From positions 1 to 42,763 of the forward strand of contig CALEIY010000007.1 in the NCBI GenBank assembly GCA_937898665.1: a DNA stretch of 42,763 nt, written 5' to 3'. A program made the position numbers and the translations under genes. The DNA is from Candidatus Bathyarchaeota archaeon (GTDB taxonomy: Archaea; Thermoproteota; Bathyarchaeia; TCS64; B23). The notes beneath the pieces were generated by a model. The model saw only the letters and a list, made by a program, of their open reading frames with translations, was not told the origin of the DNA and ran no database searches. Each line of letters starts with the position of its first letter. The first letter of the stretch is position 1. Of the stretch, positions 11,835-39,771 are shown in pieces.

Positions 11835-12080
11835 CTAGACGGCCTCAACGGCCTTAACCCCAGGGACACGTCTACGTAGATAGCCCTCTATGCTCATCTT
11901 CAGCGTCAACTGGGCCATGGGGCAGTGGGCGCAGGCTCCCTTCAGCCTCACCTTCACGACGTCGTCTGCGACGTCAACCAGCTCTACGTCTCCTCCATCC
12001 ATCTGTAGATAGGGGCGAACCTCCTCTATGGCCCTCTCAACATCTGCTCTAGATACCATCTTCCCATAGGTTGGAGGCAT
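11835..12080 (-). CDS. nfu: Nfu-type Fe-S cluster scaffold/carrier (NifU C-terminal domain)
   Basis: An 81-residue protein consisting of one NifU-like C-terminal domain. Residues from about 10 on match the family: VERAIEEVRPYLQMDGGDVELVDV, then the cluster-binding CAHCPMAQLT near residues 50-59 with its CxxC pair. Nfu proteins bind a [4Fe-4S] or [2Fe-2S] cluster between two monomers and hand it to client enzymes. That fits a genome with complex I, a [NiFe] hydrogenase and PriL. A later ATG at residue 8 (12059) is a possible alternative start. It lies between tatD and the zincin-like gene, all on the minus strand and closely spaced. Confidence 0.9.
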   Translation of the reverse strand: MPPTYGKMVSRADVERAIEEVRPYLQMDGGDVELVDVADDVVKVRLKGACAHCPMAQLTLKMSIEGYLRRRVPGVKAVEAV

Positions 12081-12103: not shown

Positions 12104-12844
12104 TTAAAGCCTCAGCAATCGCCTCAGGTTCCTCGTCGCCTTCTCCCCAATCTCCCTAGGCCTCACGTCCATCAGCGTGGCGATATGTTCAGCTACCCTC
12201 AATACATCTCTAGGCTGAGCTGAATCGGTCTCCGTCAGGAGGAGCTCCAGGGGTATACGCCTAACCGCATCGGGTGTCAACTCACCTCTGTTCAGGGGTC
12301 TCACCCCAATTGAGAGATAGATGCCCAAGTCCTCGCATCGCTCAACGTATTCCACGTCCCTGGAGAAGCCGTGGATGACCGCCCCCATTTCCACGTTTCC
12401 CTCCCCCTCTATTAATTCCAGGGTCTCGAAGCTAGGCGTCCTATCGTGGACGATGACGGGAAGCTCGAACTCTCGGGCCAGTCTAAGCTGAGCCTTGAAA
12501 GTCTCCCTCTGAATCTTCTTATCGATGATCCTCTCCTCATATACCCAATCTTTCGTCATTCTCCCAACGTAGTCCAATCCGATCTCGCTGACGGCGATGA
12601 CCTTACCCTCCTCGATGAGCTTCCTGAAGAGATGCTCAACCTCCACATCGTATTCATCCGCATACCAGGGGTGAACCCCTATACAAGCCCTCACAGCCTC
12701 GAAGCGATCAGCGATCTCCACCGCCCTCCTAGAGGACTCAAGGTCGATGCCAGCCGTGAGGATCAGGCCTACATCCACCTTTAAGGCCTCCATCACGGCG
12801 CTCTCAGCATCCTCCCCGAGATGACAATGACAATCCGAGAACAT
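12104..12844 (-). CDS. tatD: TatD-family metal-dependent hydrolase/DNase
   Basis: A 246-residue TIM-barrel amidohydrolase of the TatD family. The N-terminal metal motif DCHCHL (residues 4-9), GVHPWYADE near 57-65, SEIGLDYVG near 86-94, the PVIVHDRTPS strand near 130-139 and LLTETDSAQP near 209-218 follow the family order. TatD proteins are Mg-dependent 3'-5' DNases; archaeal members are mostly untested. It begins at ATG 12844. A minus-strand CTTTAAGTC at about 12867-12875 could be the TATA box of a leaderless mRNA. It diverges from the dsrE-like operon. Confidence 0.85.
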   Translation of the reverse strand: MFSDCHCHLGEDAESAVMEALKVDVGLILTAGIDLESSRRAVEIADRFEAVRACIGVHPWYADEYDVEVEHLFRKLIEEGKVIAVSEIGLDYVGRMTKDWVYEERIIDKKIQRETFKAQLRLAREFELPVIVHDRTPSFETLELIEGEGNVEMGAVIHGFSRDVEYVERCEDLGIYLSIGVRPLNRGELTPDAVRRIPLELLLTETDSAQPRDVLRVAEHIATLMDVRPREIGEKATRNLRRLLRL

Positions 12845-12965: not shown

Positions 12966-13373
12966 ATGGCTAAGGGACTTGGAATAATAATGTTCTCCGG
13001 AACCGCCGACAAGTTCATACCCCTCGGCGTTCTGACGCAGACGGCTGCCAACCTCGGCGTCCCTGTGCGCATCTTCGTCACCGGCTTCGCCCTACCATAC
13101 TTCACGAAGAATAAGCCTGAGCCTAGATTCCCAAAGGAGTTCGAGGACATGGTTCCAAAGGTTCATGAAGGCATGGAGCGGGTGAAGGCGCCGACCTGGT
13201 ATGACATGCTGAAGGATGCCAAGGAGCTTGGAGACGTCAAGGTCTACGTCTGCTCCCTCATGGCCGAGATCGTCGGCGTCAAGAAGGAGGATATGGATCC
13301 CATCGTGGACGATGTCGTCGGCGCCGCCTTCTTCATGAATGAGACGGAGGACTATGAGATCATCTTCATCTGA
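12966..13373 (+). CDS. DsrE/DsrF-like sulfur-relay protein
   Basis: A 135-residue protein of the DsrE-like superfamily (DsrE2/DsrE3-like branch). The alternating pattern LGIIMFSGTADKFIPLGVLTQTAANLGVPVRIFVTG at the N terminus is typical. Its single cysteine, Cys96 in VKVYVCSLMAEIVG, is where family members carry persulfide or thiosulfonate. In Metallosphaera, DsrE3A and TusA exchange thiosulfonate, and here tusA follows after 20 bp. It starts at ATG 12966 after GGTGATGCG. It is the first gene of a four-gene operon with an SQR-like flavoprotein and DUF1641, so a sulfane-sulfur carrier role is well supported by context, though not by direct data. Confidence 0.85.
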   Translation: MAKGLGIIMFSGTADKFIPLGVLTQTAANLGVPVRIFVTGFALPYFTKNKPEPRFPKEFEDMVPKVHEGMERVKAPTWYDMLKDAKELGDVKVYVCSLMAEIVGVKKEDMDPIVDDVVGAAFFMNETEDYEIIFI

Positions 13374-13393
13374 GGTGGGTAGAGGTGGTGGAG

Positions 13394-13633
13394 ATGCCTG
13401 AGCTGATAAAGGTTGATGCGAGGGGTATGGCCTGCCCAGGCCCGATATCGGCGCTGACCAGAGCCTACAGGAAGGCGAAGAACGGCGACACCATAGAGGT
13501 CTTAGCCACAGACCCAGGCTTCAAGCCTGACGTCCAGGCTTGGGTTAAGAGAACCAACAACGAGCTGATAGAGCTGACCGAAGAGGGAGGCGTAATCAAG
13601 GCCGTGATCAAGGTCACGGGGAAGAGGGGTTAA
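13394..13633 (+). CDS. tusA: TusA-family sulfur carrier protein
   Basis: A 79-residue two-layer alpha/beta sulfur carrier. The CPxP signature appears as ARGMACPGPI, with reactive Cys14 and Pro17, followed by the conserved GDTIEVLATDPGFKPDVQAWVK stretch. TusA carries persulfide sulfur for thiouridine synthesis, cofactor synthesis or dissimilatory sulfur oxidation. The frame is open to GTG 13385, but GAGGTGG at 13382-13388 spaces correctly to ATG 13394, the better start. It sits between the DsrE-like and SQR-like genes, which favours the dissimilatory or sulfide-handling role. Confidence 0.93.
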   Translation: MPELIKVDARGMACPGPISALTRAYRKAKNGDTIEVLATDPGFKPDVQAWVKRTNNELIELTEEGGVIKAVIKVTGKRG

Positions 13634-13658
13634 ACCCCATTTTTCTGAGGTGGTAGAG

Positions 13659-14834
13659 ATGAAGAAGGTTCTAATTCTCGGTGGAGGCGGAGGAGGAGCG
13701 ATTCTCGCAAATCTCCTACCAAAGGAGGAATTCGAAGTCACCGTCGTCGACCGAGATGAATATCACGTCTTCCAGCCTGGAAACCTCTTCATCGCCTTCT
13801 ACGGGGACAGCGTAGAGAAGTATCGAAGACCGATTAGATCGCTGCTGAAGCCCCATGTAAAACTCATCAGGGATGAGGTCACGGAGGTAAACCTCAACGA
13901 TAGAAAGGTGAAGCTTAAGGGGGATAAGAGCCTCGAGTATGACTACATAATCATCGCGACGGGAGCCAACCTCGACTTCGACGCCATAGAGGGGAATAGG
14001 GAGCTCCTGGAGAGCTATGGAGACTTCTACTCAACATTGGAGAACGCTGAGAAACTCTACAAGACGCTGAAGGAGATGAGGGAGGGACGCTTCGTAATAG
14101 CCATCGCAGACCCAATATACAAGTGTCCACCAGGCCCCCATAAGGGAGCCTTCCTCTCATCGACGCTCTTCGAGAGGATGGGCGTCGACGTTGACGTGGT
14201 TCTCGCCCTTCCCTTCCCACACGCCTATCCATCGAAGACCATCAGCGACATAATAGAGCCGGAGCTGGAGAAGAGGAACATAGAGGTTCACACCTTCTTC
14301 ACCGTCGACAGCATCGACGTTGAGAAGAAGCGCATCTACAGCCTCGAAGGCGAGGAGCTTGAATACACCGTCGCCACCGTCATACCGCCGCATGAGGGGC
14401 CGAGATACAAGGTTGAGCCCTCAGAGGTGAAGGATGACAGCAACTATCTGAAGATCGATAAGTATACCTGCCTCATAGAGGGCTTCGACGACGCCTACGC
14501 CATAGGGGACTGCACAAATGCCCCGACGTCGAAGAGCGGGGTCACAGCCCACCTCCAGGCTGAGGTTGTCGCTGAGAGGCTTCAGGGCTTCGACGCCAGA
14601 TACAGCGGCAGAACAAACTGCCCGTTGATCACCGACGGCATGGGACTCTTCATCATCAGCGACTATGATCACCCACCGATACCTGTGAGATTGTCGAGGT
14701 TTAAGAGGCTGCTCGAAGACCTCTTCGTCGCCACCTACTGGGATGCCATAAGGTATCCGGAGCTCTGGCAGCCCATCTTCCACGCCTACTTCGAGGCCAC
14801 ATCCCCAGCTAAACTCGGGGAGAGGGGATGGTGA
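13659..14834 (+). CDS. sulfide:quinone oxidoreductase-like FAD flavoprotein
   Basis: A 391-residue FAD-dependent pyridine nucleotide-disulfide reductase-fold protein of the SQR/flavocytochrome c sulfide dehydrogenase group. The FAD dinucleotide fold is at the N terminus (KVLILGGGGGGA, residues 3-13). IIATGAN (97-103) and YAIGDCTN (279-286) are the other FAD motifs. Redox cysteines expected for the group are Cys155 (YKCPPGP) and Cys320 (TNCPLIT). The third cysteine typical of true SQR (around 128 in Rhodobacter SQR) is absent, so the chemistry may be closer to FCC or a persulfide-linked variant. There is no signal peptide; the C-terminal LLEDLFVATYW stretch could be the amphipathic membrane-docking helix. 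GAGGTGG at 13647-13653 supports ATG 13659 over GTG 13650. Confidence 0.85.
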   Translation: MKKVLILGGGGGGAILANLLPKEEFEVTVVDRDEYHVFQPGNLFIAFYGDSVEKYRRPIRSLLKPHVKLIRDEVTEVNLNDRKVKLKGDKSLEYDYIIIATGANLDFDAIEGNRELLESYGDFYSTLENAEKLYKTLKEMREGRFVIAIADPIYKCPPGPHKGAFLSSTLFERMGVDVDVVLALPFPHAYPSKTISDIIEPELEKRNIEVHTFFTVDSIDVEKKRIYSLEGEELEYTVATVIPPHEGPRYKVEPSEVKDDSNYLKIDKYTCLIEGFDDAYAIGDCTNAPTSKSGVTAHLQAEVVAERLQGFDARYSGRTNCPLITDGMGLFIISDYDHPPIPVRLSRFKRLLEDLFVATYWDAIRYPELWQPIFHAYFEATSPAKLGERGW

Positions 14835-14843
14835 GGCGGGGAG

Positions 14844-15398
14844 ATGAGCGTCGAAACCGAGGAGCTCCTCACACAGCTTAAGGAGAGGGGAATCCTCGAC
14901 ACTCTGGTTCACGTCACCGAGCCGGAGGTCATAGAGAGGCTCTCAACGCTGCTGCTCAACGCGGGAACCCTACGCCTCATGGATCACCTGGACAGACTTT
15001 TGACGACGCTGGGAGAACTAGATGAGGACGCCATAGAGGGATTGGAGAAGATCATCAGGATACTAAAAACCTTGAATAGGATGGGGGTACTCGACACCCT
15101 GGAGAGCGTTCTGACACCTGAGATCATAGGAAGCCTATCCAGATACCTCGTGAGTGGAGGATTACTACGCCTCGTCGACGGCCTTGAGACGCTGAGTGAA
15201 GCCCTAGGTGAACTGGAGTTTGAGAAGGTTGGAGAGGCGATGCCGCTGGTGAGGGGCGCCCTTGAGGGGATACCTGAGAGGGCTGAGCGAGTCGGCCTCC
15301 TCGGACTGCTTGGGAAGCTGAGGGATAAAGACATCCAGAGAGGCCTAGGCGTAGTCATGGAGATACTTAAGGCCATAGGAAAAACCTATGGAGATTAA
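14844..15398 (+). CDS. DUF1641 helical protein of the SQR-like operon
   Basis: A 184-residue, almost entirely helical protein matching the DUF1641 pattern: two copies of a Leu-rich unit, roughly residues 10-55 and 75-120. Each reads like LTQLKERGILDTL...EVIERLSTLLLNAGTLRLMDHLD and MGVLDTLESVLTPEIIGSLSRYLVSGGLLRLVDGL, which is an internal repeat. There are no cysteines and no transmembrane segment. DUF1641 proteins recur beside SQR-like flavoproteins and formate dehydrogenases, but no biochemical role is established. It starts at ATG 14844, 9 bp after the flavoprotein stop, and ends the operon. A partner or scaffold for the flavoprotein is a reasonable guess only. Confidence 0.8.
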   Translation: MSVETEELLTQLKERGILDTLVHVTEPEVIERLSTLLLNAGTLRLMDHLDRLLTTLGELDEDAIEGLEKIIRILKTLNRMGVLDTLESVLTPEIIGSLSRYLVSGGLLRLVDGLETLSEALGELEFEKVGEAMPLVRGALEGIPERAERVGLLGLLGKLRDKDIQRGLGVVMEILKAIGKTYGD

Positions 15399-27549: not shown

Positions 27550-29307
27550 CTAGATCACCCCATACTCCTCCGCTAGGGCCCTAGCCTGCTCCGTGATGAG
27601 GCCCATAACCCTCTCTATGGCCTCGACACCCCTCCGCTCCTTAAGCCTCATGATCTCGGTGATGACTCTCATCTCCCTCACCCGCTCGATGGGGATGCCC
27701 TTCCTCACCAGGGGTTCAACGGAGTCATAGAACCTCAATATGGCCTTGAGAAGCTTCACCTGCTTCTCAGCCTCACAGTAGGTGTCCACCTCATGGAAGG
27801 CATTCTGAACCAGGAAGCCCTCACGGATCATCTCAGCGATCAACAGTATCAATCTCTGCTCATCCGGCAGCGCCTTCTCACCGATTATTCGAGCCGTCTC
27901 CTCTATCTCCGAGGCCTCCTCCAGGAGCTCCAGCGCCCTAGCCCTCATCGCCGCCCAGGCGGCGTCGTATTGACTCCACCACCTCGAGGCGACGTCGATG
28001 TATCGGCTGAAGCTCCTAAGCCAGTTTATCGCGGGGAAATGCCGTCTGAAGGCGAGCTCGGTGTCTAGGGCCCAGAAGGTTCCGATGAACCTAAGCGTAT
28101 GAGTCGTCACGGGCTCGCTGAAGTCTCCACCTGGCGGCGAGACAGCCCCTATAATGGTGACGCTTCCTATACGCCTCTCAGAGCCGAGGGTGACGACTCG
28201 CCCAGCTCTCTCATAGATGCCCGCAATCCTGTCGGCGAGATACGCTGGGAAGCCCCTCTCCGCAGGGATCTCCTCCAATCGTCCGGATAGGTCTCTCAGG
28301 GCCTCAGCCCACCTGGAGGTTGAGTCGGCCATCACCGCCACGTCGTATCCCTGATCTCGATAGTATTCAGCGAGGGTGACGCCCAGGTAGATGCTCGCCT
28401 CCCTAGCCGAGATGGGCATGTTGCTGACGTTGGCGACGATTACGGTTCTCTCTATGAGCTTCCTCCCCGTCCTTGGATCCGTCAGCTCCGGGAAGTGGGT
28501 GACGACATCGGCCATCTCGTTTCCCCTCTCCCCGCAGCCTATGAGGACGATTATGTCGGCGTCAGCCCACTTGCTTATCTGCTGGAGCATGACGGTCTTA
28601 CCCGTTCCGAAGCCCCCTGGGATGGCTGCGGCCCCGCCCTTAGCGACGGGGAAGAAGGTGTCGATGACCCTCTGACCCGTGAGGAGCGGCGAGACGAGTG
28701 GCAGCCTCTCCTTATAGGGTCTGGGAACCCTCACGGGCCAGACCTGCATCATCTTCAGCTCCTCCTCCCCCTCAGGGGTCTTCAGCTTCCCAACAGGCTC
28801 CTCCACGGTGAACTCGCCCTCATAGATCTCGGTGACCTTCCCCTCCATGCCTGGCGGAACCAGGATGCGATGCTGGAAGTATTCCGTCTCCTGGACTACA
28901 CCGATTATGTCTCCTCCCACGACTTTGGCACCTACCTCCACCTTAGGCTCAAAATACCACTTCTTCTCCCTATCCAGCGGTGCGATCCTCACCCCCCTGG
29001 TGATGAAGGGGCCTGCGATCTCCCATAGCTTCAGCTCGGAGCGCTCTACGCCATCTAGGATGGTTCCCATCAATCCCGGCCCCAGCTCTGCTGCGAGGGG
29101 CCTACCCGTATCCAGAACAGGCTCACCTGGCTTTATCCCGCTGGTGACCTCGTAGCACTGTATGGCAGCCCTCTCACCACTGAGCCTGACGATCTCTCCC
29201 ATGAGGCCGAGGTTTCCAACCTCAACTAGGTCTCCGATCTTGGGCTCGGCCTCGAATTGAGCGATGACCAGTGACCCATTTATCCTCTCTATGACTCCCC
29301 TAATCAT
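27550..29307 (-). CDS. atpA: A-type ATP synthase subunit A (catalytic)
   Basis: A 585-residue catalytic subunit. The Walker A loop is [12 protein letters not shown] (about residues 231-242), [14 protein letters not shown] follows, and [14 protein letters not shown] holds Walker B neighbours. The non-homologous region typical of A/V-type A subunits lies at about 110-200 ([15 protein letters not shown]). [12 protein letters not shown] near 385 is the conserved catalytic-interface segment. The length matches the family and no intein interrupts the P-loop. It overlaps atpE by 4 bp (ATGA). Confidence 0.97.
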
Positions 29308-30648: not shown

Positions 30649-32148
30649 TCAGCCCAGCAGCGACCCTATCAAAGGCAGCAGGGAGTCGGTGATAAGCCTC
30701 GGATAGACGCCGAGTATCAGTGATATCGCTGCGAGGATTATGAGGGGCGCCGTCATCACCGGTGGAGCCTCCCTCACCTCCCTCAGCCCCTCTGGGAGAG
30801 GGCCGAAGAAGACTCTGCGTATCATCCACAGCGTATAGCCGACGGTGAGGACGGTCATGATTATGGAGACGGCGGCGAAGACGGCGGCGTCTAGCGATGG
30901 AAGGGAGGAGTCGAAGACGCCTGAGAAGATGAGCCATTTAGACATGAAGCCGGCCGTCGGGGGGACGCCGGCGATGGAGAAGACCCCTATCAAGGCGAGG
31001 GTCGCCGTCAGCGGCATCCTATCGGCGAGGCCGCCCATGTGTTTCATGCTCCTCGTCCCCACCTGAGTTATGAGGATCCCGGCGACGCAGAAGAGGATGC
31101 ACTTTCCCAGCCCATGGCTGACATAGTGAAACATGGCCCCTGAGACGCCGAGGGTTGAGACGCTAGCCATTCCGAGGAAGATGTAGCCCATCTGGCTTAT
31201 GCTGCTATAGGCGAGGAATCTCTTCACATCATCCTGCGCCAGGGCCATTAGGCCTCCGTAGACCATGGTCACCAGGGCCCAGAGGGAGAAGATGAGGGAG
31301 AAGTGGCTGAAGATCGTTGACATGGGCAGCAGCACCAGCCTAGTGGCTGCATAGGCACCTATGCCGATCATCGCGGGGCTCAGCAGAGCTGAGATGGGCG
31401 TCGGAGCCTCTGCGTGGGCGTAGGGAAGCCAGATGTGGAGGCCGAAGACCGCCATCTTGGTGAAGAATCCTATCAGGATGGCCACCGCTATAAGGGGTGC
31501 ATTCGGGCTGGAGGCTACAGCGGGAAGCGCCGAGATCTCAAAGCTCCCCGTGACCCAGTAGGCCGATAGGAGGCCGACGAGGAGGATAACCGCTCCGACA
31601 TGGGTCCAGAGGAAATACATCATCCCTATCCGCTCCCGCTCTCCGTAGCCATAGTTGTTGATGAGGAGCCAGCTTGGGATGAGCATCAGCTCGTAGAAGA
31701 GATAGAACTCGATGAGGTTGGTCGCCATCACCGTTCCCATCATGCCGGCGACGTAGAGCATGTAGAGGGCGTAGTAGTTGGCGTAGTCCGACTTTGAGAA
31801 GTGTTCATGCCCCTCATGCTCCTCCTCAAAGCGATGCTCCATATACCTAACCGAGTAGATGCTGACGAGGAGGGAGAGGAGATTTATGGTTAGGAGCATC
31901 CATATGCTTAGGCCATCGGCCAACAGGCCGAAGGTTAAGGCCGCCCCGGGAGCCCAGGTGTAGCTCTCGAGATGCGATGCGCCTTTCAGAACCTCGTTGA
32001 GGAGGGCTAGGAGGAGTAGAAGCGTGTAGGTGAGGGGTATGGCGGCTGCATATCCACCATATTTACCAGCTCTACGGGCGTAGAGGTAGATGAGGGGAGT
32101 CGACAGCAGGGGGATGAGGAGAACCTGCATGAGGGGATTAGGCATCAT
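30649..32148 (-). CDS. nuoM: complex I-like membrane subunit M (antiporter-like)
   Basis: A 499-residue ion-pumping subunit with about 14 membrane helices. Family motifs: NLIEFYLFYELMLIPSWLLI near 145-165 with the conserved Glu of the proton channel, FTKMAVFGLHIWLPYAHAEAPTPISALLSPAMIGIGAY near 228-265 with the channel Lys and His, and LAYSSISQMGYIFLGM near 315. A His/Glu-rich loop (EEEHEGHEHF, near 110) precedes them. The frame opens at GTG 32157, but GGAGGTG at 32154-32160 spaces properly to ATG 32148. It is the last nuo gene, followed by the ATPase operon. Confidence 0.92.
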   Translation of the reverse strand: MMPNPLMQVLLIPLLSTPLIYLYARRAGKYGGYAAAIPLTYTLLLLLALLNEVLKGASHLESYTWAPGAALTFGLLADGLSIWMLLTINLLSLLVSIYSVRYMEHRFEEEHEGHEHFSKSDYANYYALYMLYVAGMMGTVMATNLIEFYLFYELMLIPSWLLINNYGYGERERIGMMYFLWTHVGAVILLVGLLSAYWVTGSFEISALPAVASSPNAPLIAVAILIGFFTKMAVFGLHIWLPYAHAEAPTPISALLSPAMIGIGAYAATRLVLLPMSTIFSHFSLIFSLWALVTMVYGGLMALAQDDVKRFLAYSSISQMGYIFLGMASVSTLGVSGAMFHYVSHGLGKCILFCVAGILITQVGTRSMKHMGGLADRMPLTATLALIGVFSIAGVPPTAGFMSKWLIFSGVFDSSLPSLDAAVFAAVSIIMTVLTVGYTLWMIRRVFFGPLPEGLREVREAPPVMTAPLIILAAISLILGVYPRLITDSLLPLIGSLLG

Positions 32149-32149
32149 C

Positions 32150-34231
32150 TCAGACACCTCCCATTAGGTAGAGAAGAGTCAGAAGGAGGGCGATGTAGGC
32201 GAGGGCGATGTAGAGCATGTTATAGGAGAGCACACCCGTCTGGAGGCGTTTAACCCTATGGTAGAGGCCGGTGAAGACGGCGGGGACACCCTCGTTTAGA
32301 CCCCTATCGACGACGGCTGACTCGAAGAATTTGAATATGGCATCCTTAAACGCCAATAGGCCGTCGACGAAGATGGCGTAATAGAGGGGGTTGATATACC
32401 AACGGTTCCAGAGGAAGCTGTATATCCCCCTGAGGATCGGCGATGACTCCACAAACTCCTTTGGGTCGATGCGTCGAGCGAGGTAGAAGAGATATCCCGC
32501 GACGCCTCCGAGGAGCAGCATCGCGGCTGAGAGGGAGATGGTTCCTATGGGTGAGGGGGCGGCGACGTGAGAAGGCAGCGGGATCTCCATCTCATGCAGC
32601 ATTAGATGCAGCTTCCCCTCTATGATGTGCTCCGGCGAAAGGGAGGGGGCGACGAGGCCGATGAGGCCTAGGAGGCCGATGACGATGACGAGGGCGTCGA
32701 GGATGGCGATGGGAACCCACATGATGGGGCCTGCCTCATGGATGTGATGCTCCCGCTCCAGCTCCTCCACGTGATGGCTGGGCTCGCCGTAGAAGGTGAG
32801 GGAGATGAATCTGAGGCTGTAGAAGAAGGTCATGGCGGCCGTGATGGCGGCGACGATGAGGAGGGCGTAGGCGAGAGGGCTGCCTGCATAGAGGCAGCTG
32901 AGGAAGACGGCGTCCTTACTCCAGAACCCTGAGAGCGGCGGGACACCTGAGAGGGAGAGGGCGGCTATAAGCATGAGGATATGCGTAATCGGCATCCAGC
33001 GTCTAAGCCCACCCATGTCAAACATGTAGATGGACTCCACGGCGTGGATGGCGCAGCCTGCGCAGAGGAAGAGGGCCGCCTTGAAGAGGGCGTGGCTGAG
33101 GAGGTGGAAGACGCCGCTGGTGAGGCCGGGTAGCAGCGCCCCCTCCCCGAGGCCTGCGACTCCTAGGGCGAGCATCATATACCCTATCTGGCTGATGGTG
33201 GAGTATGCCAGGGCCTTCTTAAGCTCTAGGGCCACCATAGCCTGGGAGGCGGCGAGGAAGGCGGTGAAGGCCCCTATGACGGCGATGGCGGTGAAGAAGG
33301 TGATGGCCTCAGCTATGCCGTGAACCCAGTAGCCTATGTAGAAGATGGGGGAGAGCCTTGCGACGAGGTAGACCCCAGCCTTAACCATCGTGGCGGCGTG
33401 TATAAGCGCCGAGACAGGGGTCGGCCCAGCCATCGCCTCAGGGAGCCACTCATGCAGGGGGAACTGAGCAGACTTCCCTATCGGACCTCCGAGGAGTAGT
33501 AGGGCCGTGAGGGATAGGAGGCCAGGCGTCGCCGCTATGGCTGAGAGCCAGTGGGGAGCCGCCTCGATGAGCTCTAGGAAGTTGAAGGTTCCGGCGTAGT
33601 GGTAGATGATGAAGATGGCTGCCAATAGGAGGACGTCGCCGAAGCCCGTGACGACGAAGGCCTTCATGCCGCAGTGAGACGGCGGATACATCGGCGTCGG
33701 CGGAGGGCCTCCAAGCCAGTTCTCCTTCTCATCTCTATAGTAGAAGCCTATGAGGCCCCAGCTGCACATGCCGACGCCCTCCCAGCCTACGAGGAGCATG
33801 ATGAAGTTGTCGCTGAGGACTAGGAGGAGCATGCTGCCGATGAAGAAGAGGAAGAAGAACCAGTATCGGGTTAGGCAGGGGTCTCCATGCATGTAGCCGA
33901 CGGAGTAGACGACGATGAGGAAGGCGATGAAGGAGACGACGTTGGCGATGATTATGCTCAACGGATCGACGAGCAGCCCCACCTCCAGCGGAGGCTTATC
34001 CGGGAAGGCGATCCAAGTCAGCAGCTTTATGTCCCCGGGATACTCCCCTGAGATGAGCCAGGGTATCATCGAGAATGTAGACAGGACGGCGGCGAAGGCG
34101 AAGAGGACGGCCGCGAGATCCCTGACGCGGTCACCGGCCTTGGCTAACAGGGGCATTAGGAGTGCTCCTGCCATAGGTATCATCCAGGCGAGCCAGGGGC
34201 CGGGATAGGTTGAGATGACCTCTAGACCCAT
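32150..34231 (-). CDS. nuoL: complex I-like membrane subunit L (antiporter-like)
   Basis: A 693-residue, largest antiporter-like subunit. Motifs: SVGYMHGDPCLTRYWFFFLFF near 110-130, LLVGWEGVGMCSWGLIGFYY near 146-165, PLHEWLPEAMAGPTPVSALIHAATMVKAGVYL near 258-290 and LKKALAYSTISQIGYMMLALG near 330-350. A His-rich loop (HHVEELEREHHIHEAG) lies near 485-500. The C-terminal region after 600 includes the final helices and the lateral-helix area. It starts at ATG 34231, 6 bp after nuoN, and its stop overlaps the upstream region of nuoM. Confidence 0.94.
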   Translation of the reverse strand: MGLEVISTYPGPWLAWMIPMAGALLMPLLAKAGDRVRDLAAVLFAFAAVLSTFSMIPWLISGEYPGDIKLLTWIAFPDKPPLEVGLLVDPLSIIIANVVSFIAFLIVVYSVGYMHGDPCLTRYWFFFLFFIGSMLLLVLSDNFIMLLVGWEGVGMCSWGLIGFYYRDEKENWLGGPPPTPMYPPSHCGMKAFVVTGFGDVLLLAAIFIIYHYAGTFNFLELIEAAPHWLSAIAATPGLLSLTALLLLGGPIGKSAQFPLHEWLPEAMAGPTPVSALIHAATMVKAGVYLVARLSPIFYIGYWVHGIAEAITFFTAIAVIGAFTAFLAASQAMVALELKKALAYSTISQIGYMMLALGVAGLGEGALLPGLTSGVFHLLSHALFKAALFLCAGCAIHAVESIYMFDMGGLRRWMPITHILMLIAALSLSGVPPLSGFWSKDAVFLSCLYAGSPLAYALLIVAAITAAMTFFYSLRFISLTFYGEPSHHVEELEREHHIHEAGPIMWVPIAILDALVIVIGLLGLIGLVAPSLSPEHIIEGKLHLMLHEMEIPLPSHVAAPSPIGTISLSAAMLLLGGVAGYLFYLARRIDPKEFVESSPILRGIYSFLWNRWYINPLYYAIFVDGLLAFKDAIFKFFESAVVDRGLNEGVPAVFTGLYHRVKRLQTGVLSYNMLYIALAYIALLLTLLYLMGGV

Positions 34232-34237
34232 TCACCT

Positions 34238-35755
34238 TCACCTCCCAACGACGGCTTGGATATATCTCCCAAGGCCCTCCACCAGCATCCTGGAGGCCGC
34301 ATCGGCGTATCGGATGGCTGGCTGAGGCCAGAGGCCGAGGAGGAGTATGAGGAGGGCCATGAGGAGGTTGACGGCCACCATGAGGGCTGGAGCCTCCTCC
34401 GCCTCGAATTCGCCCTCAGGGGTGGAGATGAAGTTCTTCATCACCCTTAGGTAATAGGCCATGGAGAGGGCGCTGTTCAGGACGCCAGCCACGGCGAGGA
34501 TGGGCATCCCTGCGCCTATGGCGGAGGAGAAGAGGATGAACTTGCTGATGAAGCCATTAGTCGCTGGAACCCCTCCGAGGCCGAGGAGGGAGATGGAGAG
34601 GGAGAGCATCGTATAGGGCATCATCCGGCCAACACCTCTCAGCTTCTCTATATCCCTCATACCGGTTTGATGGGTGATGTTTCCAGCGGCGAGGAATGCC
34701 AGCCCCTTCATCAATGAATGGTTGAGGATGTGGAGCAGCGACCCCATCAATCCATAGGCCGTCCCCGTTGAGAGGCCTATGAGCATATACCCTATCTGGC
34801 TGATGCTGCTGTAGGCTAAAAGCCTCTTCAAGTCGTTCTGGAGCAGGGCCATTATATTGGCCACCGTCATCGTTATGACGGCGAGCGCAGCGAAGACGCT
34901 CCGATAGACGGAGGGGGTGAAGGTGAGGTACGTAACCCTCATCAGGGCGTATAGGCCGGTCTCGATGACTATGCCCGACAGCAGTGCGCTGATGGGGCCT
35001 GGAGCCTCGGGGTGGGCATCCGGAAGCCATGTGTGGAAGGGGACTATGGCCGACTTGACGCCGAAGCCGACGATGAGGGTGGCCAACAGCAACAGCAGCC
35101 AGGGCGACGGCTCCACCCCTCTAAGGCTGGCGGAGAGATATGCGAAGTTGAGGGTTCCGCTCATGCCGTAGATGAGGGACATGCTCAAGAGCAGGAAGGC
35201 GCTTCCAGTGGCGCTCATTATGAGATATTTAAAACCGGCCTCGATGGGCCCCCATCGATACTTGAGGAAGGCGACGAGGACGTAGCTGGAGATGCCCATC
35301 ATCTCCCAGAAGACGAAGAGGGTGAAGAAGTCGCCGGCTAAGGCGACTCCGGTCATCCCAGCCATCATGAGGAGGACGAGTGTATAGAACTCCGTGAGCC
35401 GACTCTCCTCCTCCATATAATGATAGGAGTAGACGACGGCTAGGAAGCCTAAAAGGGCGACGCAGCCAGCCATATAGACGCCGAGGGTGTCGATCTCGAA
35501 ACATCCCGCTAGGGGGGGACTCCCCAGGAGGGAGGAGACGATAACCCGCCCTGGAGAGGCCCTGAGCTCCTGGTAGAGGAGATAGATCGAGATGAGGTTT
35601 AGCGCAGAGAAGGCTATGGCCCAGAGCTCCCTAAGCCTCCTGAGACCCGTCTTCTCAGCTAGGAGGCCGATGAGGGGGAGGGTTCCACCTCCGAGGAGGA
35701 GAACCGCTAGGGGCAGGGGGAGGAACGAGGCCGATAGGGGAGAGATCATCACCAT
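34238..35755 (-). CDS. nuoN: complex I-like antiporter-type subunit, probably NuoN
   Basis: A 505-residue membrane protein with about 14 helices of the proton-translocating Nuo L/M/N family. Motifs: GDFFTLFVFWEMMGISSYVLVAFLK near 140-165, VKSAIVPFHTWLPDAHPEAPGPISALLSG near 233-262, and LAYSSISQIGYMLIGLS near 315. It shares features with MrpD/MbhH-type subunits, so N versus a second M-type subunit is decided mainly by elimination (L and M are clear). It starts at ATG 35755, overlapping nuoK by 7 bp; ATG 35749 gives a TGATG overlap and is equally possible. Confidence 0.8.
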   Translation of the reverse strand: MVMISPLSASFLPLPLAVLLLGGGTLPLIGLLAEKTGLRRLRELWAIAFSALNLISIYLLYQELRASPGRVIVSSLLGSPPLAGCFEIDTLGVYMAGCVALLGFLAVVYSYHYMEEESRLTEFYTLVLLMMAGMTGVALAGDFFTLFVFWEMMGISSYVLVAFLKYRWGPIEAGFKYLIMSATGSAFLLLSMSLIYGMSGTLNFAYLSASLRGVEPSPWLLLLLATLIVGFGVKSAIVPFHTWLPDAHPEAPGPISALLSGIVIETGLYALMRVTYLTFTPSVYRSVFAALAVITMTVANIMALLQNDLKRLLAYSSISQIGYMLIGLSTGTAYGLMGSLLHILNHSLMKGLAFLAAGNITHQTGMRDIEKLRGVGRMMPYTMLSLSISLLGLGGVPATNGFISKFILFSSAIGAGMPILAVAGVLNSALSMAYYLRVMKNFISTPEGEFEAEEAPALMVAVNLLMALLILLLGLWPQPAIRYADAASRMLVEGLGRYIQAVVGR

Positions 35756-36060
35756 CTCAATCGCCTCAACTTTCTCACATCGAGGGTTCCATAATGTTTA
35801 TAGGCGTTGAGGACCATCGCGAGGCCTACGGCGATGACACAGCCGTCGAGGACTATAGCCATCATCACTATGGATTGACCGAGGGGATCTACGAAGCCCG
35901 CTCGGCTGAGGGAGAGGGCGACGAAGTTTAGATTCGCGGCGTTGAAGAGTATCTCCAGGCCGATGAGCATCCTTATCATATCCCTCTTCATCATTAGGCA
36001 TCCCAATCCGATGAGTAGGAGGAGGAAGACCGAGACTAGATAGGGGATAAGGGCATTCAC
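35749..36060 (-). CDS. nuoK: complex I-like subunit K
   Basis: A 103-residue protein with three membrane helices (about 5-22, 27-50 and 60-85). GCLMMKRDMIRMLIGLEILFNAANLNFVALS matches the NuoK signature with its conserved membrane Glu in GLEIL. The start is GTG 36060, overlapping the nuoJ2 stop (GTGA). It lies between nuoJ2 and nuoN and works in the ion-pathway chain linking the quinone site to the antiporter-like subunits. Confidence 0.93.
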   Translation of the reverse strand: MNALIPYLVSVFLLLLIGLGCLMMKRDMIRMLIGLEILFNAANLNFVALSLSRAGFVDPLGQSIVMMAIVLDGCVIAVGLAMVLNAYKHYGTLDVRKLRRLRW

Positions 36061-36344
36061 CTCTCCTCACCTCCAGGCTTTAGGAGGGCTATGCAGCACA
36101 TGATGGCTGCGAGGATGACGAAGGCTTGGGAGAGGAGGTCTAGCATCCTCCAACTCCAGAGGAATCTGCCGACGGCGGATGAAACCTCCTTAAAGGCTCT
36201 CAGGGGTATGAGGCGGCGAGGTAGATCCTCCACGGCGTAGGCTAATAGGGGAAACTCATACTCGACTGTGAACCATGCGAGGATTATCAGTGAGAGGAGG
36301 AGGAAGATGGAGGAGGCGATGTAGAGCTTCACGTCGTCTCTCAT
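36057..36344 (-). CDS. nuoJ2: complex I-like subunit J, C-terminal part
   Basis: A 95-residue protein with hydrophobic segments at about 7-27 and 68-90, separated by a polar loop of about 40 residues containing PRRLIPLRAFKEVSSAVGRFLW. Its place right after the J1 gene and before nuoK, and the QAFVILAAIMCCIALL final helix, mark it as the second half of a split NuoJ, as in the FpoJ1/J2 pair of Methanosarcina. Sequence similarity to J is weak; the assignment rests mostly on position. ATG 36344 overlaps the J1 stop (ATGA). Confidence 0.75.
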   Translation of the reverse strand: MRDDVKLYIASSIFLLLSLIILAWFTVEYEFPLLAYAVEDLPRRLIPLRAFKEVSSAVGRFLWSWRMLDLLSQAFVILAAIMCCIALLKPGGEER

Positions 36345-36580
36345 TCCGCTTCACCTCCCCTCGTTAGGATGACTGTTATGAGGAAGAAGACGACGATGGC
36401 CCCTGCGAAGATGGCGAGCTGGAAGACGGAGACCATGGGGGCGCCCATCATATAGTAGAGGATGCCCAGCGAGACGTTGGTGCAGAGGAGGAAGAGGACG
36501 GCGTAGACGATGTTGGGAACAGAGACGGCTAACAGGGCGGTGATGACGACGATGGCTAGGAGGATGGAAGCCCAGATCAT
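36341..36580 (-). CDS. nuoJ1: complex I-like subunit J, N-terminal part
   Basis: A 79-residue protein with three membrane helices. SVPNIVYAVLFLLCTNVSLGILYYMMGAPMVSVFQLAIFAGAIVVFFLITVILT is the conserved NuoJ core, including the VYAGAIVVLF-like stretch near residues 57-70, where the usual Tyr-Ala is Phe-Ala. Its stop overlaps the J2 start. It begins at ATG 36580, overlapping the nuoI stop (ATGA). Confidence 0.9.
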   Translation of the reverse strand: MIWASILLAIVVITALLAVSVPNIVYAVLFLLCTNVSLGILYYMMGAPMVSVFQLAIFAGAIVVFFLITVILTRGGEAE

Positions 36581-37047
36581 AGCTCCTCCACCACCTCATA
36601 CTTCATCTCTTTATCGGTTAGAACCGGCTTTATACGCCGTTTAAGCATCGGCAGAACCTCCTTTATGTCTGGAACCTCAGCCAGCCGCTCTGGGGAGTAG
36701 ACCAAATCGCTCCGCTTGTAGGCTGAGAACTCGACGAAGTCCGTCATCGTCAATGCGCCCCGGGGACAGGCGTCGACGCAGAGGCCGCAGAGGCTGCAGG
36801 TTCCATAGTCTATCTGTGGATACTTCCCCTCCCGCCCCTCGACGGGGACGAGAACTATGGAGGCGCAGGGGCATATCCTGGCGCAGAGGCCGCAGTGGAT
36901 ACACTTATCGAGATCGAGTCGATGGCGACCCCTGAAGCGCTCGGAGAAGACTAGGCGCTCATCGGGATACTTAACGGTCTGGGAACTCCTCGCCACGTAG
37001 GGGGCGACGACGAGGAAGGGTTTAACCAGCTTCTTGAGGAGGCTCAT
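36577..37047 (-). CDS. nuoI: complex I-like subunit I (2x[4Fe-4S] ferredoxin)
   Basis: A 156-residue ferredoxin-type subunit from ATG 37047. Two CxxCxxCxxxC motifs bind the N6a/N6b clusters: Cys49, 52, 55, 59 (CIHCGLCARICP) and Cys84, 87, 90, 94 (CSLCGLCVDACP). An extra Cys61 follows the first motif. A longer frame to 37119 exists, but it lies inside nuoH and homology starts at MSLLKKLVKP, with an ATGA overlap to the nuoH stop. The C-terminal tail after residue 110 has no cysteines and may contact the missing donor module. Confidence 0.95.
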   Translation of the reverse strand: MSLLKKLVKPFLVVAPYVARSSQTVKYPDERLVFSERFRGRHRLDLDKCIHCGLCARICPCASIVLVPVEGREGKYPQIDYGTCSLCGLCVDACPRGALTMTDFVEFSAYKRSDLVYSPERLAEVPDIKEVLPMLKRRIKPVLTDKEMKYEVVEEL

Positions 37048-38177
37048 ATCATCAACCCCCACTTCAGGATTATAGTTATGAAGAGGTTGAGTAGAGCTAG
37101 GGGCATCAGATAGTTCCATCCCAGCCTCAGCGTCTGATCCAGCCTAAGCCGTGGATAGACCGTTCTGATGAGGACTACTATGACCACGATGACTGCGAGC
37201 TTCAATAACATCCAAAATATATGATCATATAATGGGACTCCGAGGAGGCTGGGGCCGAGGTATCCCCCAAGGTAGAGGACGATGAACAGCAGAGTCCATC
37301 CGAGGAAGCTGACATATTCAGCCATCATGGTGAAGCCGAAGAGAACTCCGCTGAACTCCGTTCTCCAACCTATAACCAGCTCCGTCTCAGCCGTAGGCAC
37401 GTCGAAGGGCGTCCTCTCAGCCTCTAGGATGAGGCCTACGAAGAAGACCAGGAACCCTATGAACTGGGGTATAGCAAACCATAGAGGCCTTTGAGCCTCA
37501 ACGATGTCGACTAGGTCGAGGCTTCCAGCCAGCAGAGCCGTGGCGGCGGCGCAGATGACGAGGGGTATCTCCCCTGAGACGTAGAGATAGGCGGTTCTGA
37601 AGCTTCCGATGATGGTGTACTTATTGTTGGCAGCCCAGCCGGCGAAGATGGGAATCACCGGAGCCAGGCCAGCTATGGCTAGGAAGACAGGTAGGCTTAG
37701 GCCTCCGGCGTCGAAGAGAACCCAATTGCTGTCGAAGGGTATGAGGGTGATGGCCAAAGCCGGAATCGTCGGCAATAGAACCGGAGCGGCGAGGAAGAGG
37801 GCTTTCTCAACATCGTCGGGGATGACGAACTCCTTGAAGAAGAGTTTGAGGAAGTCGGCGATGACCTGAAGCCAGCCTGAACGCTTGCCACAGTAGTAGG
37901 GGCCGATGCGGAGCATGGCCCTGGCGAGGAACTTCCTCTCAAACCAGACGGCTATCATGGCGAAGAGGAGTATGAAGGCCAAGCCAGGTATAACGATGAT
38001 CTGGGCTAAGGGCTTGAAGTTGAACCAGATGAAGTCCCATAGCCATTTAAGGAGCTCCGGAATGAGCGTTGGAAGACTCTTGATGAAGTTTATGACCTGG
38101 AGTGGAGCCTCATGGAGGAGCCATCTAACCAGGCTGAGGATGTAAAGCCAGATCAGGGTGACGACATCCATACGCAT
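37044..38177 (-). CDS. nuoH: complex I-like subunit H
   Basis: A 377-residue membrane subunit with eight or so helices; it forms the floor of the quinone (or methanophenazine-like) site. Signatures: AVWFERKFLARAMLRIGPYYCGKRSGWLQVIADFLKLFFKE near 75-115, GSFRTAYLYVSGEIPLVI near 190-207, and EAERTPFDVPTAETELVIGWRTEFSGVLFGFTMMAEYV near 255-290. ATG 38177 gives a TGATG overlap with the nuoD stop and is preferred over GTG 38180. Confidence 0.96.
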   Translation of the reverse strand: MRMDVVTLIWLYILSLVRWLLHEAPLQVINFIKSLPTLIPELLKWLWDFIWFNFKPLAQIIVIPGLAFILLFAMIAVWFERKFLARAMLRIGPYYCGKRSGWLQVIADFLKLFFKEFVIPDDVEKALFLAAPVLLPTIPALAITLIPFDSNWVLFDAGGLSLPVFLAIAGLAPVIPIFAGWAANNKYTIIGSFRTAYLYVSGEIPLVICAAATALLAGSLDLVDIVEAQRPLWFAIPQFIGFLVFFVGLILEAERTPFDVPTAETELVIGWRTEFSGVLFGFTMMAEYVSFLGWTLLFIVLYLGGYLGPSLLGVPLYDHIFWMLLKLAVIVVIVVLIRTVYPRLRLDQTLRLGWNYLMPLALLNLFITIILKWGLMI

Positions 38178-39295
38178 CACCTATCGCAGTCTAGATACCA
38201 GGGGTCTATGGAGTAGAGGATGACGGGGAGGTCAGCCACCAACACCTTATCCAGCTCGGCGAGTCGCTCGAAGACATACATATTCCTCAGGGTCGGGGAG
38301 TTAATCTTCACCCTGTAAGGCTTCATCCCGCCGTCGGTGAAGATGTGAACCCCAAGCTCACCGCGGGCAGTCTCAACCCTGCTTAGGGCCTCTACGCCAG
38401 GCTTAGACCTTGGGAAGAGGGGAACCTTAGTCCTCACGGGGCCGCCGGGTATCTCATCGGCGATCTGCTCCATGATGTTCAAGCTCTGCTCGATCTCGTG
38501 GAACCTCACCTTCAACCTGGCGAGGCAGTCCCCCTCCTTCTCGGTTATAACCTTGAAGTCGAGGTCTCCATAGGCGGCGTAGGGCTCGTCCCGCCTCACA
38601 TCCATGTCAACCCCTGAACCCCTTAAGACGGGGCCTGTGGCCCCCAGTCTTATGGCGTCTTCACGGCTTAGGATGCCGACGCCTCGATTTCTCATCTCGA
38701 AGAGGGGGTTCTCAACCATCGCATCCCAATAATCCTGAAATCTGCGTCTGAGATATTTGACAGCCCTCTTCACCTCATCTCTAAATCCCTCTGGGAGATC
38801 AGCTCGGACGCCGCCTGGTATGAAGAAGCTGTAGCTCCACCTCGCCCCAGTGAGCTTCTCGAAGAGGTCTAGGAGAACCTCCCTGTCGACGGTTGTCCAG
38901 AGGAAGACCGCTGGGAAATATCCAGTGCACTCAACCTGTAGGCCGAAGGCGTAGAGGTGGCTATTGATCCGGCCCATCTCACATATCAGCGACCTAATCC
39001 ACTTCGCCCTCTCAGGCACCTCTATGCCCAGGGCCTCCTCCACGGCCTGGACGTATCCGAGGGCGATGTTGGCCGTGTCGGCCATCACCATCCGCTCGAT
39101 TGGGACGATGCCCTGGATGAAGGTTCTCTTCTCCAATATCTTCTCAATACCTCTATGCGTGAACCCTATATCGGCTATGATGCGTCTAACAACCTCCCCG
39201 TCGACGTCGATGAGTATGCGGGTCTGACCACTCATGGGGTGCTGAGGACCCCAGCTTATACGCATGACCTCGGGCTTGACCTCGGGCTCCGTCAT
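38177..39295 (-). CDS. nuoD: complex I-like subunit D (49-kDa type)
   Basis: A 372-residue subunit related to the large subunit of [NiFe] hydrogenases. SWGPQHPMSG near residue 12 and GFTHRGIEKILEKRTFIQ near 42-60 are NuoD signatures. The nickel-binding CxxC pairs of hydrogenases are absent at both ends (C-terminal YSIDPWYLDCDR), so this is an oxidoreductase core and not a group 4 hydrogenase. The frame extends to 39349, but ATG 39295 matches the family start and overlaps the nuoC stop (ATGA). Confidence 0.95.
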   Translation of the reverse strand: MTEPEVKPEVMRISWGPQHPMSGQTRILIDVDGEVVRRIIADIGFTHRGIEKILEKRTFIQGIVPIERMVMADTANIALGYVQAVEEALGIEVPERAKWIRSLICEMGRINSHLYAFGLQVECTGYFPAVFLWTTVDREVLLDLFEKLTGARWSYSFFIPGGVRADLPEGFRDEVKRAVKYLRRRFQDYWDAMVENPLFEMRNRGVGILSREDAIRLGATGPVLRGSGVDMDVRRDEPYAAYGDLDFKVITEKEGDCLARLKVRFHEIEQSLNIMEQIADEIPGGPVRTKVPLFPRSKPGVEALSRVETARGELGVHIFTDGGMKPYRVKINSPTLRNMYVFERLAELDKVLVADLPVILYSIDPWYLDCDR

Positions 39296-39771
39296 GGTGT
39301 GACCCCCTCCCCCTTGAAGTCTTTCCTCAGGGGGTAGCCACCCCTCCAATCCGGCGGTAATAGTAGATGTGTCAGGTTTGGATGGCCCTCGAAGTCGATG
39401 CCGAACATCTCCCAGGCCTCCCTCTCATGGAAGCTCATAGCCTCCCAGACCTGCGTCATCGACGGCATCCTGGGGTTATCCCTCGGCAGGTCGACTCTCA
39501 GCATCAACATGAAACGGGACTCAGGGTTCATGAGGTAGTAGATCATCTGCATCCTCCCTTCCTTGATGTAGTCGACAGCCCCAGCTGAGACGGGATGGGT
39601 GAAGCCATATTTGTCCCTTAGAAGCCTTGCGAGTTCCAGGATCTTCTCCCTCTTCGCGACGATGGACACCCGTTTGGATCTATGAATCACAGCCTCCACT
39701 AGGAGCTCCGGATGCTCCCGCTTCAGCTCCTCTACGAGCTCCTCCTCACTCCTTGCCGGCACGGAATCCAC
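39292..39771 (-). CDS. nuoC: complex I-like subunit C (30-kDa type)
   Basis: A 159-residue peripheral-arm subunit. The family signature HEREAWEMFGIDFEGHPNLTHLLLPPDWRGGYPLRKDF is near the C terminus (about 115-155). NuoC and NuoD are separate genes here, not fused as in E. coli. It starts at GTG 39771 (or GTG 39762), overlapping the nuoB 3' end by 26 bp. It is translationally coupled to nuoD. Confidence 0.94.
   Translation of the reverse strand: MDSVPARSEEELVEELKREHPELLVEAVIHRSKRVSIVAKREKILELARLLRDKYGFTHPVSAGAVDYIKEGRMQMIYYLMNPESRFMLMLRVDLPRDNPRMPSMTQVWEAMSFHEREAWEMFGIDFEGHPNLTHLLLPPDWRGGYPLRKDFKGEGVTP

Follow-up and report, generated by a model that had tools for sequence, protein, structure and literature searches.

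A DsrE-TusA-SQR-DUF1641 operon of a Bathyarchaeota archaeon, a candidate two-component sulfide:quinone oxidoreductase encoded together with its sulfur carriers

What would two sulfur carriers, a flavoprotein resembling sulfide:quinone oxidoreductase (SQR) and a protein of the DUF1641 family do together? The question is raised by contig CALEIY010000007.1 of a Candidatus Bathyarchaeota archaeon (assembly GCA_937898665.1), whose positions 1 to 42,763 are the stretch analyzed here (the window, 42,763 nucleotides). An earlier note, made from the letters of this DNA, had described a DsrE-TusA-SQR-like-DUF1641 operon at 12966-15398, and four co-directional open reading frames (ORFs) were indeed found there on the forward strand, with intergenic gaps of 11, 25 and 9 bases, in order. 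Since the arrangement recurs in two congeners, in distant archaea and, with the carrier changed, in bacteria, it is a real, conserved and functionally coherent operon and not a product of chance. We propose that it may encode a two-component SQR together with its own sulfur carriers.

Operon layout and identity of the flavoprotein

Each of the four deduced proteins scored above the Pfam cut-off for at least one fitting family. The first gene (12966..13373) encodes a DsrE-like sulfur carrier of 135 amino acid residues (aa) (DrsE_2, PF13686, E 1.5e-11, 45 bits, cut-off 25), and the second (13385..13633) a TusA sulfur carrier of 82 aa (PF01206, E 5e-22, 78 bits, cut-off 28.6). The third (13659..14834, with an alternative GTG start possible at 13650) encodes an SQR-like flavoprotein that has 391 aa when read from the ATG and most resembles type III SQR (Pyr_redox_2, E 9.4e-21, together with the NCBIfam, phmmer and Foldseek results given below), and the fourth (14844..15398) a DUF1641 protein of 184 aa (PF07849, E 2e-14, 53.6 bits, cut-off 21), the proposed quinone-coupling stalk subunit. 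The earlier proposal of two sulfur carriers and an SQR-like flavoprotein in one operon is borne out by these matches. In the DsrE-like protein the likely persulfide-carrying residue is Cys96 (codon 13251..13253), invariant in 21/21 sequences of alignment A6; the cut-off of the NCBIfam DsrE2 model (SulfCarrDsrE2) was not reached (23.5 of 210 bits). The TusA domain contains the CPxP cysteine of its family as Cys17 of a CPGP motif (codon 13433..13435), invariant in 18/18 sequences of alignment A7.

The nearest solved relative of the flavoprotein was human SQOR (phmmer, E 7e-36). The AlphaFold2 (AF2) model (predicted local distance difference test, pLDDT, 94.5) showed the two-dinucleotide-binding flavoprotein fold of SQR, and Foldseek searches with this model gave human SQOR as the best match (template modeling, TM, score 0.86), with A. 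aeolicus SQR at 0.83. The fold is also related to that of NDH-2, as seen in both the sequence and the Foldseek searches. NDH-2 lacks the SQR cysteine pair, which is present in the flavoprotein, and an NDH-2 identity was rejected on this ground. The best NCBIfam model by far was NF049943 (type III SQR, selenoprotein subtype) with 251 bits; its cut-off of 525 was not reached, so the protein is not of the selenoprotein subtype.

The flavoprotein holds four cysteines, at positions 156, 271, 285 and 321 counted from the ATG. In alignment A5 (33 relatives) Cys156 was conserved in 33/33, Cys321 in 30/33 (the three exceptions have Ala), Cys285 in 10/33 and Cys271 in 3/33. The predicted catalytic residues Cys156 (codon 14124..14126) and Cys321 (codon 14619..14621) align with the KC..P and CPL motifs of human SQOR, respectively, and thereby with two cysteines which we take to be the human redox pair; Cys285 lies within a GDC motif and is matched by a cysteine in the alignment with human SQOR. 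For type III SQR, the two cysteines are named as canonical (PMC13047784). Since the human pair aligns and type III SQR canonically has two, the lack of a third cysteine is the normal state. The earlier note had named Cys155 and Cys320, residues that exist and are numbered 156 and 321 from the ATG, and had held the absence of a third SQR cysteine to be noteworthy, although this state is that of human SQOR and type III SQR. Special chemistry due to a missing third cysteine was likewise rejected, no third cysteine being conserved among the 33 relatives. Judged by its sequence, the protein is a type III-like SQR of the ordinary two-cysteine kind.

Replacement of Cys321 by Ala, with DUF1641 kept, was seen in the SQR-like proteins of loci L061, L101 and L117 (contigs labelled Thermoplasmata or Thermoplasmatota), and the same sort of change was found at L207, L225 and L226. 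The length of the C-terminal tail showed no clear relation to DUF1641 loss by eye (uncounted) in A5.

Linkage of DUF1641 to SQR-like genes across genomes

In a sample of the class, DUF1641 was found in 5/250 genomes and was tied to SQR in all five. Four of these genes directly adjoin an SQR-like gene; at the fifth (L154 1-318, reverse strand, G016:C40), located at a contig end, the start of the SQR gene is joined in frame to the end of the DUF1641 gene, a fusion that is a deletion remnant. In a sample of the phylum, 77/398 genomes contained DUF1641 according to the Pfam model alone; in a control, PF07849 also gave matches in Sulfolobus acidocaldarius and Haloferax volcanii. An SQR-like gene lay directly upstream in 29 of the 30 top-scoring loci, the 30th being interrupted by a contig end. 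Of forty further regions, hand-chosen down the ranked list and not random (four genomes occur twice), 34 have a co-directional SQR-like gene upstream, in some cases separated by a DsrE gene. Among the misses, L213, L232 and L240 show a ForCE-like arrangement: the neighbors there are long proteins of about 970 aa, identified as formate dehydrogenase-like by inspection of their sequence and not by family search. L216, L235 and L243 have no clear partner. The partner flavoproteins of the 40 further regions, taken with those of 20 regions mostly overlapping the top 30, kept both cysteines in 56/60 cases (three have Cys with Ala or Val and one is truncated), and for this reason they look like SQRs and not like NDH-2.

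A survey by SQR similarity gave at least 80 loci, from which 57 SQRs with 2.6 kb or more of flank on either side were counted; flavoproteins of fewer than 330 aa had been removed beforehand, and 24/81 with shorter flanks were left out. Among the 57 flanked SQR relatives listed, DUF1641 was present in 48, DsrE in 53, DsrC in 36, TusA in 17 and any carrier in 54, and TusA and DsrC occurred together in none (0/57). The co-occurrence of DUF1641 and DsrE with the flavoprotein in other genomes, on which the earlier note had staked its proposal, is therefore strong. In bacteria, DsrC takes the place of TusA: the gene lying between those of DUF1641 and DsrE was identified as DsrC in the three cases scanned (E 2e-33 to 1e-39). 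Eighteen more weakly matching SQR-like proteins of the class served as controls, and none of DUF1641, DsrE, DsrC and TusA was found in their flanks of about 1.5 kb.

The order DsrE-TusA-SQR-DUF1641 of the window was also found at L039, L190 and others, and the order TusA-SQR-DsrE-DUF1641 at L217, L218, L229 and others, while bacteria show SQR-DUF1641-DsrC-DsrE. Since the linkage persists through reshuffled gene order, the linked genes would share a job. Two SQR-like/DUF1641 pairs at one locus were observed at L228, L234, L237, L238 and L248, and also at L040. Two loci on Heimdallarchaeota-labelled contigs (L064 and L085) have TusA-SQR-TusA-DsrE-DsrE and no DUF1641.

The DUF1641 protein and its quinone-linked relatives

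The earlier note had treated DUF1641 as an uncharacterized partner, and profile searches now give a lead. Among Protein Data Bank (PDB) chains, a profile of 19 DUF1641 proteins taken from SQR loci (A3) matched ForE1 (E 1.8e-16), YjlC (2e-8) and HucM (1.2e-5), the last alignment covering only the C-terminal half, which is the stalk part; a profile of mostly bacterial DUF1641 proteins matched ForE1 at 2.6e-11. The DUF1641 protein of the window alone (P0004) gave two weak PDB matches (E 0.03), and only the 19-sequence profile, not P0004 alone, recovered ForE1, YjlC and HucM. Profile A3 and a further one, A4, were drawn partly from loci counted later in the SQR-neighborhood tally; as a check, 17/19 and 18/19 of their members, respectively, matched Pfam's own DUF1641 model. 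By PDB chain titles YjlC partners YjlD, an NDH-2, and a chain near-identical to YjlC bears the title 'NDH-2 membrane coupling protein'.

Alignment of one half of the DUF1641 protein with the other delimited a first helical repeat at residues 7-72 (14862..15059) and a second at about residues 73-137 (15060..15254), with a score of 115 vs 28 ± 5 for shuffles, none of 500 of which reached 115. In the alignment, a conserved motif at residues 145-180 (15276..15383) falls on the C-terminal end of the stalk of HucM. Four longer DUF1641 proteins from the phylum sample (230-373 aa) showed extra repeats by eye.

ForE1 is needed for menadione reduction, probably for the binding of menaquinone-7 (MK-7) by ForC1, and ForC1 produced without it contained little MK-7 and had no formate:menadione activity (PMC8808070). 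HucM is the scaffold of Huc, and its C-terminal helices make a hydrophobic tube toward the membrane, able to hold menaquinone (PMC10017518). The DUF1641 protein of the window is probably a member of this ForE/YjlC/HucM quinone-coupling family.

The ForCE formate dehydrogenase of Bacillus subtilis, in which ForE is the DUF1641 protein, likewise sets DUF1641 beside a quinone-linked enzyme without transmembrane segments; its partner, however, is a molybdenum enzyme and not a flavoprotein, and the available parts of the article mention no link to sulfur carriers (PMC8808070). YjlC-YjlD (PDB 9pxk, 9snk; 9a63), a pairing taken from chain titles, also combines a DUF1641 relative with a flavoprotein of related fold, but NDH-2 oxidizes NADH, whereas the window flavoprotein keeps the SQR cysteine pair. 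In Huc, menaquinone is similarly delivered to a non-integral enzyme, and the C-terminal stalk of HucM aligns with the DUF1641 profile; the differences are the partner, an [NiFe] hydrogenase, and an alignment limited to the C-terminal half (PMC10017518).

The clustering of SQR with TusA and DsrE is already known from Methylacidiphilum fumariolicum, where the SQR is of type III, and Metallosphaera cuprina. The SQR-TusA-DsrE2 operon of M. fumariolicum was up about 1.7-1.8-fold under H2S in cells making elemental sulfur (PMC10205796), and TusA-SQR-DsrE4 of M. cuprina is Mcup_1722-1724, where DsrE4 denotes the group of DsrE proteins whose genes lie downstream of SQR (PMC4175335). These operons resemble that of the window in the clustering of SQR, TusA and a DsrE-type carrier, but they have another gene order, DUF1641 goes unmentioned in the available parts of both articles, and the window organism is seemingly without terminal oxidases. 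A tie between DUF1641 and SQR was not found in the published literature by a full-text search, preprints and most subscription papers lying outside its coverage. The enzyme class is not new, but the operon suggests that one of its subunits has been missing. DUF1641, still of 'unknown function' in Pfam, would acquire a function in sulfide oxidation that can be tested, and formate dehydrogenase, [NiFe] hydrogenase, NDH-2 and SQR would be linked by sharing one type of quinone-coupling subunit. These data further suggest that many SQRs studied alone may lack their natural partner, and that the SQR product would go to carrier proteins.

Proposed mechanism, genome context and alternatives

In the mechanism that we favor, and consider rather probable, the flavoprotein would use FAD and the Cys156-Cys321 pair to oxidize sulfide. 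The tandem-repeat helical DUF1641 subunit would dock the enzyme to the membrane as a stalk and bring quinone to the flavin for the transfer of electrons, and the sulfane sulfur would be handed to TusA Cys17 and DsrE-like Cys96 rather than released. We infer the complex, the quinone transfer and the identity of the quinone, the direction of electron flow and the sulfur hand-over. As a tentative extension, type III-like SQR across much of archaea and bacteria might possibly be a two-subunit enzyme, with the length of the DUF1641 stalk set by the number of tandem repeats and with a carrier-bound persulfide (on TusA in archaea, on DsrC in bacteria), not free sulfur, as product.

Several observations weigh against this mechanism. 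Nine of the 57 flanked SQR relatives listed keep SQR without DUF1641, and earlier work on the type III SQR of C. maquilingensis, as related in PMC9666304, dealt with a protein anchored through its C terminus, so DUF1641 would not always be needed. The structure of the DUF1641 protein was poorly predicted (pLDDT 53), the predictions being of single chains. In the three genomes of the genus (the source genome and two congeners), no member of the MqnA/MqnD family (0/3), no haem-copper oxidase (COX1, 0/3) and no cytochrome bd (0/3) was found, and the lack of both oxidases leaves the electron sink for sulfide oxidation in doubt. A prenylquinone in the source genome is plausible from its gene content, since contig C230 groups UbiE-like, MenA-like, polyprenyl synthase and geranylgeranyl reductase-like genes; the MenA-like and UbiE-like matches fell below the NCBIfam cut-offs, which again counts against the mechanism. 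Oxygen respiration as a general sink was rejected, COX1 being present in only 8/18 module-bearing genomes (hand-chosen from the 80 loci).

The source genome (1.83 Mb in 255 contigs, with archaeal-type ATPase subunit A and primase large subunit) bears on the earlier suggestion of a compact, self-contained module without hdr or dsrAB. At the locus itself, no hdr genes were among the read and scanned neighbors of the dsrE-tusA genes, which therefore do not have the make-up of the sHdr system (hdrC1B1A-hyp-hdrC2B2 with dsrE/tusA and lbpA). Beyond the locus the suggestion is weakened, as contig C177 contains an hdrA-like gene with hdrB/C-like neighbors (neither TusA nor DsrE was matched in the 13 kb read there), contig C184 a DsrM-like and DsrK-like pair below the NCBIfam cut-offs, and congener G043, at a contig end (L251, C1:44000-49116), the C-terminal end of dsrA with dsrB (600 bits, cut-off 341.5) and DsrD. 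This last cluster could be foreign, the contamination of the assembly being given as 3%. No NIR_SIR match was found in the source genome or congener G005. CCG proteins were present in all three genomes.

The weights that we give to the favored mechanism and to its rivals overlap in part. The main rival, which appears unlikely, runs the module in reverse: quinol would, via DUF1641 and the flavoprotein, reduce the sulfane sulfur on DsrE and TusA to sulfide in anaerobic sulfur reduction. At the usual potentials electron transfer from quinol to sulfur is uphill, which speaks against such a reversal, and the DsrMK-like genes would offer an alternative quinol outlet. The organism nevertheless seems anaerobic, its genome and both congeners being without COX1 and cytochrome bd, yet with complex I-like genes in the window, and the low count of COX1 among module-bearing genomes points the same way. 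Ignicoccus, moreover, respires sulfur. In Ignicoccus hospitalis the DUF1641 protein Iho_0672 and the product of the next locus, the FAD-dependent pyridine nucleotide-disulphide oxidoreductase Iho_0673, are abundant and were up 10-fold and 5-fold, respectively, with Nanoarchaeum equitans (PMC3149612). The H2S induction and sulfide oxidation in one expression study (PMC10205796) argue instead for the oxidative direction.

It is quite improbable that DUF1641 only supports the structure or assembly of the flavoprotein and handles no quinone. The quinone role is drawn from few relatives only, and ForC1 without ForE1 loses most of its formate:benzyl viologen activity (kcat 2 vs 96 per s), so that ForE also stabilizes the enzyme; on the other side, the binding of MK-7 drops without ForE1 (PMC8808070), and the three enzymes served by ForE1, HucM and YjlC are all quinone-linked yet unrelated to one another. 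Service in detoxification or biosynthesis, with protein persulfides made for tRNA thiolation or Fe-S work and not for energy, is distinctly doubtful. TusA acts in tRNA thiolation in E. coli, and a NifU-domain gene is found nearby (11835-12080), although on the opposite strand and with one gene intervening; a quinone-linked subunit is conserved with SQR, and TusA is replaced by DsrC in bacteria, both of which speak against a biosynthetic role. That the four genes are unrelated neighbors, a view for which no support was found, has virtually no probability left, being refuted by the linkage counts, in which the genes recur together in different phyla and in several orders.

The operon is preceded by a divergent ORF (12104-12844) and followed, 65 bases beyond the DUF1641 gene, by a gene for an acyl-transferase family (AAT) protein. 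On contig C184 of the source genome, which has no haem-copper oxidase match, the DsrM-like and DsrK-like genes stand in a row with those of a haem O synthase-like UbiA and GcvH (L150 193-3464, G000:C184). Elsewhere in the window, an archaeal ATP synthase subunit A is encoded at 27550-29307, and the complex I-like genes occupy 30649-39349 on the reverse strand, where five scanned proteins match the NuoL, NuoM/N, NuoH and NuoD models.

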